This document shows, piece by piece, positions 53,749-56,106 of a stretch of 64,000 bases of DNA; position 1 is the stretch's first letter; each line of letters starts with the position of its first letter. Source of the DNA: Nisaea sediminum (GTDB taxonomy: Bacteria > Pseudomonadota > Alphaproteobacteria > Thalassobaculales > Thalassobaculaceae); contig NZ_JACZCQ010000006.1 of NCBI RefSeq assembly GCF_014904705.1, positions 124,001 to 188,000 of the forward strand, read 5' to 3'. Below the pieces are notes generated by a model. The model searched no databases. It had not been told where the DNA came from and saw only the letters and a program-made list of their open reading frames with translations. Made by a program: the position numbers and the translations under genes.

Positions 53749-53970
53749 TTGGTAAATGGCGCGCGGACAGCATTCGGCAAGTCAAAGCCCGGCTGAACAC
53801 TATGTTAAGACAGATTAATTTTATGCGATTGGTTTTCAATTCGAATTTCAATCAAATATCCAGAATATTATTGTATTATTAACCCACCGCACCGCAGAAT
53901 AGGGAAAAGGAATGCGGAAACTGATCGTGAAAACGCGATCATGGTAAAAAATCTGGGTGGGAACAGCGCT
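53749..53970. other. AT-rich intergenic region upstream of the globin-coupled receptor
   Basis: About 190 bases clearly richer in A and T than the surroundings, between divergent genes. It contains palindromic AATTCGAATT flanked by GATTG/CAATC and runs such as AATATTATTGTATTATTAA. Likely the divergent promoter region; no specific factor site can be named. Confidence 0.45.
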
Positions 53971-56106
53971 ATGACCGATGCTGCGCAGACTTCAAGACTG
54001 GCATTTGCGGGATTGGACAAGAACACTCTTGCGGACATGAAGGCTATCTGGCCGGTTATCGAGGCCGGATTGCCGTCGGTGCTCGATGCATTCTACACCC
54101 ATGTCTCCGCCGCGCCGGAAACCGCTGCGATCCTCGAAAAGGGTCCCGGCATCGACGCCCTCAAACGGGCCCAGACGGAGCATTGGCGGACCGTTTTCAA
54201 TGACGGCTTCAGCGCAGAGCATCTGGAGCGCGCCATCAGGATCGGCAAGATCCACGCGAAGATAGGCCTGACCCCGCGCTGGTATATCGGCGCTTACACC
54301 TTCACTCAGCCGCTCCTCTTCAAGTTGATCGCAAAGAAATACAAGCGGACCGAAGATGCCCTCCGCTACTGCAACGCCGTCGCGAGGGCCGTCGCGATCG
54401 ACATGGATCTTGCGCTGGAGGCCTACAGCAGCTCGGAAGAAACGGAAAAACTCAAGGACCAGATCCTCAACATGGCCGATACGCTGGAACGCGAAATCGA
54501 CCAGACGGTGGAGGAGGTCACGCTGCAGGCGAACCGGGTCGCCGATCTGACCAACGGGCTTGCCGTCGCCGCCAACGAGATGGCTGCCCTGGTCAACGAA
54601 GTTCGGCAGGCGACGGACGTGACCGCGAACAACGTCAATTCGGTCGCCGCCGCGACAGAGGAACTCAGCGCGTCGAGCCAGGAGATCGCCTCCCAGGTAT
54701 CCGAGTCCGCAGCCCTGACGCACCAGGCGACCGCATCCGCGGATGACGCCCGCAGCCAAGTCGCCGCGCTGGAAGAGGCAACGACCAATATCAGCTCGGT
54801 GGTCGATCTCATCAACTCGATCGCCGCGCAGACCAAGTTGCTGGCGCTGAACGCGACGATCGAGGCGGCACGCGCGGGCGAAGCCGGCAAGGGCTTCGCG
54901 GTCGTCGCATCCGAAGTGAAGTCCCTGGCGCAGCAGACCGAAAACGCCATTCAGGACGTCAGCCAGCACACCGCGAACGTGCAGACGGCGACCCGCTCCT
55001 CCGTCGACGCCATCACCGGAATTGCCACCAAGATCGGCGAGGTCAACGGGATCGCTTCCGGCGTCGCCACGGCAGTGGAAGAGCAACAGGCTGCCACCAG
55101 CGAAATCGGCCGCTCCTCGAACGAGGCCTCGGAAATGACCGCCCAGGTCGCCGACGCGATCGCGCGTGTCGCCGAGCATGCGGACCGCACCAGCAAGTCC
55201 GCGGGCGCGATCGAAACCTTGGCGAAGAATGTCAGCATCAATGTCGGTGACATGAAACGGCGCCTGTCGGTCGTGGTCCGGTCCAGCAATCAGGCGGACC
55301 GCCGGACCACAAACCGCGTCCCGACCGTCATCAATGCAACCTTCAAGTTCGGCGATATCGACCAGAAGGGTTTCATCGCCGACCTTTCTCCGCGCGGCGC
55401 GCTGCTGCTCTGCGACAAACAGGAAGAGGCGGTTCCCGGTACGGTTGGCCATATCGGCCTCGCCAGCGGCCTGAAGATCCCGGCACGGGTCGTGGCGGCG
55501 ACCTCGCTCGGCATCCATGTCGGCCTCGAGAGAATGGACCAGACCGCCGCCGGTGCCGTCGCCTCCATGATCGAGCAGGCGATGAGCGAGAACGATACGT
55601 TCCGCGAGATCTGCGAGGTCGCGGCCCGCGAGGCGGCGGAGGCCATGAGCAACGCCATCAGCTCCAGGCGGATCTCGCTCGACGACTTGTTCGACACGCA
55701 CTACGCCATCATGCACGGCACCAACCCGGTGCAGTATTCGACCAAGTTCGTCGACCTGACGGACGAGATCCTGACCCCGATCCAGGAGCGCCATAAAGCC
55801 AGGGACGAGCGGATCCGCTTCATCGCCGCGACCGACCGCAACGGCTATATCGGGACCCACAACAAGGTCTATGCGCAGCCCCAGCGCCCGAACGATCCTG
55901 TCTGGAACGCCGCCAATTGCCGGAACCGGCGGATCTTCGACGACCGCGCCGGGCTGCTGGCCGCCGGAAACAAGGAGCCCTTCCAGTTGCAGACCTATAT
56001 CCGCGACATGGGCGGCGGGCAGAAGGTGCTGCTGAAGGAAATCGACTGCCCGATCACGCTGTCAGGCCAGCACTGGGGCAATATGCGCTGCGCCTTCGTG
56101 CCGTGA
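53971..56106 (+). CDS. Soluble globin-coupled chemoreceptor with PilZ and C-terminal sensor-like domain
   Basis: About 711 residues, no membrane segment. Residues ~8-160 are a globin-coupled sensor with proximal-His segment [20 protein letters not shown] (His95). ~185-435 is an MCP signalling coiled coil with the hairpin tip [20 protein letters not shown] (~285). ~440-540 is a PilZ domain: RRTTNR (RxxxR) and [11 protein letters not shown] (DxSxxG), the c-di-GMP-binding residues. ~570-711 is a PDC/Cache-like C-terminal domain ([39 protein letters not shown]) seen in other alphaproteobacterial receptors. Start at 53971 has GGTGGGA 8 bases upstream; ATG at 53941 adds 10 residues. Confidence 0.88.

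Follow-up and report, generated by a model that had tools for sequence, protein, structure and literature searches.

Results

Locus and domain order of the receptor

The window (the whole stretch of DNA analysed here, 64,000 nucleotides from Nisaea sediminum) carries at 53971..56106 on the + strand a gene for a four-domain soluble chemoreceptor of 711 aa plus stop, which was defined by translation, Pfam matches and comparison of its start with relatives. A further ATG in the frame, at 53941, would lengthen the protein by 10 residues; the relatives L005 and L006 have an ATG equivalent to that at 53971 and no in-frame ATG further upstream. The domains follow one another in the order Protoglobin (residues 7-157), MCP hairpin, PilZ (443-529) and a C-terminal domain (540-711), and Protoglobin, MCPsignal and PilZ all exceeded the curated Pfam cut-offs. 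The first-pass annotation, made from the sequence alone, had read this frame as one soluble receptor joining globin, MCP, PilZ and PDC-like domains, and the presence of four domains in a single open reading frame was borne out by Pfam, by the alignment with HemAT and by the motifs. The highest 19-residue hydropathy mean of the protein was 1.21, so that no membrane span is expected; this agrees with its earlier description as soluble and, as judged by hydropathy, with the lack of a transmembrane region that marks the cytoplasmic (class IV) chemoreceptors. The search for the same architecture, which had been proposed as a check, found the whole four-domain protein in all five genomes of the genus at 72-100% identity, its own genome counted. 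At the strict threshold of 1e-60, matches were obtained in 12 of the 61 genomes searched, several of them consisting of globin and MCP only. A chance or artefactual frame was ruled out, since three domains lie above curated cut-offs and the gene is retained in the genus.

The neighbouring genes encode PutA, a glucose/sorbosone dehydrogenase, a trypsin-like protease, a DUF350 protein, a TauE transporter, an AsmA protein and, as the seventh, a protein without a Pfam match; by Pfam, the locus has no chemotaxis genes. All seven neighbours were matched in a 10-kb locus of Nisaea denitrificans. When about 1.5 kb was compared on each side, the dehydrogenase was kept in L005-L008, and the flanks of L006 gave no match to the protease or the DUF350 gene, so the downstream side varies within the genus. 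The genome holds 33 MCP matches in 31 frames, 11 GGDEF matches and 6 CheW-domain matches in 4 frames; the last of these are spread over two regions of contig C1, which points to possibly more than one chemosensory system. Among the neighbours of 80 loci only lineage-level synteny was seen, gene clustering being swamped by antisense shadow frames, and some loci have phosphatase-like and glutathione-reductase-like neighbour genes, named by eye. Upstream of the gene, an AT-rich block at 53856-53884 (ATATCCAGAATATTATTGTATTATTAACC) recurs in L005 with no or almost no change and in L006 for the most part, and is perhaps a promoter or operator.

Globin, MCP and PilZ domains

The Protoglobin domain (residues 7-157, 53989..54441, + strand) matched PF11563 with an E value of 1.7e-36 and a score of 126 bits against a cut-off of 25, and was alignable with HemAT of B. 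subtilis (1or4) at E 1.2e-12. In this alignment Tyr42 (54094..54096, + strand) pairs with a tyrosine of HemAT, which we take to be the distal Tyr70, and His95 (54253..54255, + strand), the candidate proximal heme ligand, pairs with a histidine. Both residues of the heme pocket of globin-coupled sensors, the proximal His and the distal Tyr, were thereby found by alignment with 1or4, and the proximal-His motif noticed in the first reading was confirmed. His123 is given as the proximal heme ligand of HemAT in the available part of PMC10851874. Among the 14 globin-type rows, 13 have His at position 95 (Arg in L012) and 13 have Tyr at position 42, L142 being truncated by a contig end.

Two variant receptors were also observed. 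L012 (genome G028, receptor on the - strand) shares the architecture of the window receptor, with Arg at position 95 instead of His and with the first PilZ Arg lost; its globin is possibly a decayed one, and its C-terminal domain is retained despite the altered globin and PilZ, which suggests that the globin and PilZ inputs can be dispensable. The other, a second globin-MCP of the window's own genome (contig C1:195097-196527; L001 1435-3060, + strand), ends in a short PilZ-like tail with a Pfam E value of 0.0027, below the cut-off, in which RxxxR and DxSxxG were recognised by eye, and it is without the C-terminal Cache-fold domain described below.

The long helical MCP hairpin spans residues 156-438 (54436..55284, + strand) and was assigned from Pfam and the full-length model, in which it forms a continuous helix over the same residues. 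The MCPsignal match covers residues 251-402 (E 4.2e-27; PF00015, 95.5 bits against a cut-off of 34.6). The kinase-control tip of the hairpin, residues 287-319 (54829..54927, + strand), was located by columns invariant in 43 relatives, so that the hairpin seen at first reading is upheld both by Pfam and by these columns, and the protein has the conserved-tip MCP output of globin-coupled sensors. The two ends of an MCP hairpin are found together, on the side of the bundle distal to the kinase.

The PilZ domain (residues 443-529, 55297..55557, + strand) gave an E value of 2.2e-6 and 28.4 bits in the whole protein, and 7.7e-8 and 33 bits for PF07238 when cut out, against a cut-off of 22.5. Together with this profile match it carries the two motifs of c-di-GMP receptors of this family, RxxxR and [D/N]xSxxG: the RxxxR and DxSxxG residues named earlier are indeed present as R445-R449 (55303..55317, + strand) and D471-G476 (55381..55398, + strand). 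Of 66 rows with a PilZ match, that of the window among them, a regular-expression test found both motifs in 55; the first motif alone was missing in 6, the second alone in 3 and both in 2. In the full-length model PilZ forms a barrel, and a single helix, residues 524-564 (55540..55662, + strand), joins it to the C-terminal domain. This model has a pLDDT of 80.8 and a pTM of 0.47, so that the relative placing of its domains is not reliable.

Predicted fold of the C-terminal domain

The last part of the protein, residues 540-711 (55588..56103, + strand), belongs to no Pfam family, and its assignment comes from the predicted fold. The last 171 residues of the window protein gave no Pfam or NCBIfam match at E values up to 1, and no Pfam family covered the domain in 112 members at the same limit. 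The 15 Pfam families listed for these members include no Cache or PDC profile; the commonest match, GAF_2, was found in 11 members with a best E value of 0.0012, and these weak matches are in keeping with a distant PAS/GAF-like fold. The PDB was searched by sequence with the window domain as query (best E 1.1) and by a profile of the domain (best E 0.028, to MCM7), and none of the matches was usable; a "probable chemotaxis transducer", 7prq, appeared in the profile search at E 2.

An AlphaFold2 model of the domain, built from the 112-row alignment, had a mean pLDDT of 96.9 and a pTM of 0.91. Its topology is a long N-terminal helix (2-25), two short strands, a helix (55-70), two strands, two helices and three long strands. 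Foldseek returned 8 matches below E 0.001, all of them Cache/PDC-type sensor domains by title, and its top 50 also include a PAS domain (3lyx), a Geobacter domain (3e0y) and an engineered biosensor (9ebw). A second aligner, which covered Foldseek's top 1000 chains, gave Z scores of 13.3 to 5ere, 13.2 to WalK, 12.4 to DctB, 12.0 to Tlp3 and 11.2 to DcuS, with 2.1-2.8 A over 116-126 residues and a background Z of 7 to 8; its five top matches reached 13.1-13.3 over 117-125 residues. No fold other than PAS/Cache-like ones was noticed in its top 50 rows.

The PAS-like core after a long N-terminal helix, which characterises Cache domains, is present in the predicted model, not in a solved structure. 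No Cache or PDC profile of Pfam was matched, and the location is not the extracytoplasmic one, which is typical and not universal: in the available text of PMC4822843, 78% of Cache domains are extracytoplasmic. The absence of a Pfam Cache match and the cytoplasmic position led us to file the domain as Cache-fold by fold only, outside the named families. We regard its Cache/PDC fold as settled as far as a prediction can settle it; the early guess of a "PDC-like" domain is upheld by the predicted fold, and sequence searches give it no support. In extracellular Cache domains the N-terminal helix prolongs the first membrane helix, as described in the same part of PMC4822843; in the full-length model the leading helix arrives from PilZ, not from the membrane.

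Distribution of the C-terminal domain

At E 1e-10, a profile built from 10 relatives detected the domain in at least 61 of 385 genomes of the class, and at E 1e-5 one built from 112 members did so in at least 88 of 398 genomes of the phylum; both samples take in the window's genome, and the counts are lower bounds because scoring was confined to part of the candidates in each genome. Named genomes were scanned with peptide patterns of the domain as well, and of the 559 loci confirmed there the best 80 were used. Going by their titles, these 80 are mostly from organisms that we presume to be Alpha- and Betaproteobacteria, and one is labelled Mesoflavibacter. From 125 frames with the domain, 9 partial or re-fetched and 4 identical ones were removed, which left the 112 members; over the last 400 residues, L008 (genome G002) was identical to L022 of Nisaea denitrificans and L010 (genome G031) to L031 of Thalassobaculum litoreum. 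The addition of 20 longer frames from the class search gave a set of 132 proteins.

In 132/132 proteins the C-terminal domain follows the MCP hairpin and stops no more than 4 residues short of the protein end. Its position after the hairpin makes it cytoplasmic by topology, even in receptors with N-terminal membrane spans. PilZ sits between MCP and the C-terminal domain in all 66 proteins that have it, that is, half of the 132 receptors examined, and the globin lies before the MCP in 14/14. At a Pfam E value of 0.01, MCPsignal was matched in all 43 full-length members, PilZ in 33 and Protoglobin in 12.

Among loci from outside the class, L156-L166 mostly show one or more short N-terminal hydrophobic stretches followed by the MCP and the C-terminal domain, which could be the only sensor of these receptors if no other sensor domain stands in front. 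When 12 loci outside the class were searched with the MCP, globin, PilZ and C-terminal profiles, a further MCP was found in two (L165, L167). The C-terminus of the F7 receptor McpA/CttP (PA0180) is called highly conserved in the available part of PMC7184735; a relationship of our domain to this tail, compared by description alone, is not established.

Conservation and candidate ligand residues

The alignment of the domain has 146 rows, 144 of them distinct and one from a plasmid-borne relative. P586, R651, R654, R678, G681 and P694 are invariant in 146/146 rows. This takes in both arginines of the stretch R651-R654 (55921..55932, + strand) and the first residue of the pair R678 and D679 (56002..56007, + strand), D679 being kept in 144 of 146. 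The 12 loci from outside the class provide a fairer check, since they were found by profile and not by peptide patterns of the domain: P586, H630, R651, R654, F656, R678, G681, P694, W702 and G703 are identical to the window in all 12, D658, Q674, Y676, D679 and R706 in 11, N631 in 10 and D622 in 8. Cache domains hold their ligands in the region that matches model strands 87-91 to 133-140. R651, R654 and D658 lie between these strands, the pocket being placed by topology only, and their position in the presumed ligand region suggests that the ligand of the predicted domain would be anionic.

A somewhat unlikely alternative is a conserved docking or dimerisation role of the C-terminal domain, for example in array packing or in binding a common partner, with only oxygen and c-di-GMP being sensed. 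The conservation of the domain speaks for it: the mean pairwise identity among 8 globin-type receptors (28 pairs) was 56% for the C-terminal domain, close to the 53% of the MCP (tip 77%) and well above the 35% of the globin and the 34% of PilZ, which is unusual for a sensor. The same measure in all 43 relatives gave 54% for the C-terminal domain, 41% for the MCP, 69% for the tip, 31% for PilZ (630 pairs) and 28% for the globin (105 pairs), the last two figures taking in some rows without a true PilZ or globin. The joining of the domain to receptors with very different N-terminal parts also fits docking. However, most of the proteins were gathered with the domain's own conserved peptide patterns, so that its conservation figure is inflated; Arg, His, Asp, Gln and Tyr are among the invariant or near-invariant residues, which are thus not hydrophobic ones alone, and several lie between model strands 87-91 and 133-140. 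We consider a sensor for a small ligand the better reading of the domain.

Tree and apparent exchange of domains

A quick tree of the 132 receptors was made from the MCP and C-terminal columns; several of its long branches are uncertain and the sample was selected by the tail. On this tree 65 rows without PilZ stand apart from a group of 67 (SH-aLRT 95) that contains all 66 rows with a PilZ match. The other N-terminal parts in the PilZ group include PAS plus TarH (L026), two-span modules recognised by hydropathy (L132, L138, L140, L145-L147 and L150), and some receptors have none. The grouping of the PilZ rows, with their varied N-termini, makes PilZ plus the C-terminal domain look like a constant tail that was joined once, and it looks as if N-terminal parts have been exchanged in front of it, the globin being one of several. 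The globin occurs in 14 rows, all inside the PilZ group, with 6 label changes. A single origin of the globin was rejected, at least 5 of these changes being forced by starred branches; gain and loss are indistinguishable here.

The tree bears on another reading, in which the protein is an ordinary globin-coupled aerotaxis receptor of the HemAT/Atu1027 kind whose C-terminal half merely modulates adaptation. Globin and MCP are the best matched parts of the protein, and globin-MCPs without the PilZ/C-terminal tails exist in related genomes (e.g. L014, L018, L020). Against this, the tail is constant and the globin variable, with no globin by profile in 118 of 132 rows and six changes on the tree, a picture that a sample chosen by tail favours; on balance we hold this reading to be unlikely, and a separate input through the tail is preferred.

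Discussion

In the present study, the parts of the receptor were compared with known systems. HemAT of B. subtilis and Atu1027 and Atu0514 of Agrobacterium are likewise soluble, with an N-terminal protoglobin and MCP output. The available part of PMC10851874 describes Atu1027 as a globin MCP that acts as an aerotaxis receptor, and a change of its heme His abolishes aerotaxis. By description, these Agrobacterium receptors differ from ours in the tail: PilZ is unmentioned in the main texts of PMC10851874 and PMC8466855, and the available parts of the two papers name no sensor domain at the C-terminus. Tlp1 and Aer of Azospirillum brasilense likewise have a C-terminal PilZ after the MCP, with the c-di-GMP arginines in Aer, as far as the accessible text of PMC6406031 and PMC13401364 goes. 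According to the same text, c-di-GMP binding to the PilZ of Tlp1 alters the response to oxygen gradients, and the PilZ of Aer is required for aerotaxis. Tlp1 and Aer are membrane-bound, unlike the window receptor, and the sensor of Aer is PAS-FAD, not a globin. Both are described, in what was available on them, as ending in PilZ with no further domain, and are set apart from our receptor by that description.

With regard to the C-terminal domain, WalK, DctB, CitA, DcuS and Tlp3 (Cache/PDC) have in common with it the fold and the long N-terminal helix; their domains are extracytoplasmic, whereas that of the window receptor is cytoplasmic, follows the MCP and has no Pfam Cache match. YkuI_C and Diacid_rec occur in EAL or transcription-regulator proteins, in contrast to the chemoreceptors here, and YkuI_C lies C-terminal to its output domain. 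Neither was among the 15 Pfam families listed for the 112 members. The available part of PMC4822843 presents these as two Cache families that are principally intracellular. Globin-MCPs, PilZ-MCPs and intracellular Cache families are thus known kinds of protein, and the four-part combination and the unnamed Cache-fold tail look new: in the available text of the open-licence papers searched, we found no description of globin, MCP, PilZ and a C-terminal Cache domain together, and no role for the C-terminal domain.

HemAT1 and HemAT2 of Magnetospirillum gryphiswaldense resemble the window receptor in being protoglobin MCPs, and the available part of PMC12442639 reports their deletion and mentions additional modules, PilZ among them, in several of the MCPs selected. 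We found the same architecture in L044, a MAG labelled Magnetospirillum, with a Pfam PilZ match of only E 0.042. Taken together with that statement, this suggests that a member may already have been deleted with its tail unremarked.

We believe that the gene probably encodes an aerotaxis receptor of the globin-coupled kind that is tuned by c-di-GMP and takes a third input, in the cytoplasm, through the Cache-fold domain, on the evidence of the sequence, the models and analogy with relatives. It is fair to infer, as the first-pass annotation did, that oxygen, c-di-GMP and perhaps a small ligand would together steer motility. The receptor would work as a dimer whose MCP hairpin carries sensors at the ends of both helices. 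Oxygen would bind the heme of the N-terminal globin and change the N-terminal helix; c-di-GMP would bind PilZ at the C-terminal helix end and reset the sensitivity of the receptor, by analogy with Tlp1 and Aer of A. brasilense. The globin and PilZ steps of this scheme are taken from the characterised relatives Atu1027, Tlp1 and Aer. The helix common to PilZ and the C-terminal domain would couple PilZ to the cytoplasmic Cache-fold domain, which may bind a conserved, probably anionic metabolite through the invariant arginine set. The three inputs would be summed on one hairpin, which would set kinase activity and act through CheW and CheA on the flagella. A role in a non-flagellar pathway, such as gene regulation or surface sensing, instead of taxis would be allowed by the distance of the gene from che genes and by the two CheW-domain regions, with maybe more than one chemosensory system. 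We hold it to be improbable: the receptor has a hairpin tip of the ordinary MCP kind, and it is common for orphan receptors to signal into the main array.

If the receptor works as an aerotaxis receptor with a third input, one polypeptide would weigh outside oxygen against the internal state of the cell. The tail itself, without a Pfam name, would be of wider interest: it occurs in at least 88 of 398 phylum genomes, and it has invariant arginines and the predicted fold of the commonest extracellular sensor. Its ligand, once found, would give many orphan receptors an input together. As a tentative proposal, which we put forward with some doubt, the domain could found a new cytoplasmic Cache family at the tails of Pseudomonadota chemoreceptors that binds one same anionic metabolite in all of them. 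If this is true, many bacteria would have in common an internal metabolic or energy signal feeding their chemotaxis arrays, and c-di-GMP (through PilZ) and lineage-specific sensors such as the globin would have been added to it.

Receptors with the C-terminal domain were also seen in tandem. Two such receptors adjoin in genomes G393, G510, G552, G719, G743, G761 and G670, and adjoining pairs were found in loci L030, L083 and L119 as well; in six genomes of one genus the paired frames are about 610 aa and about 480-510 aa long.
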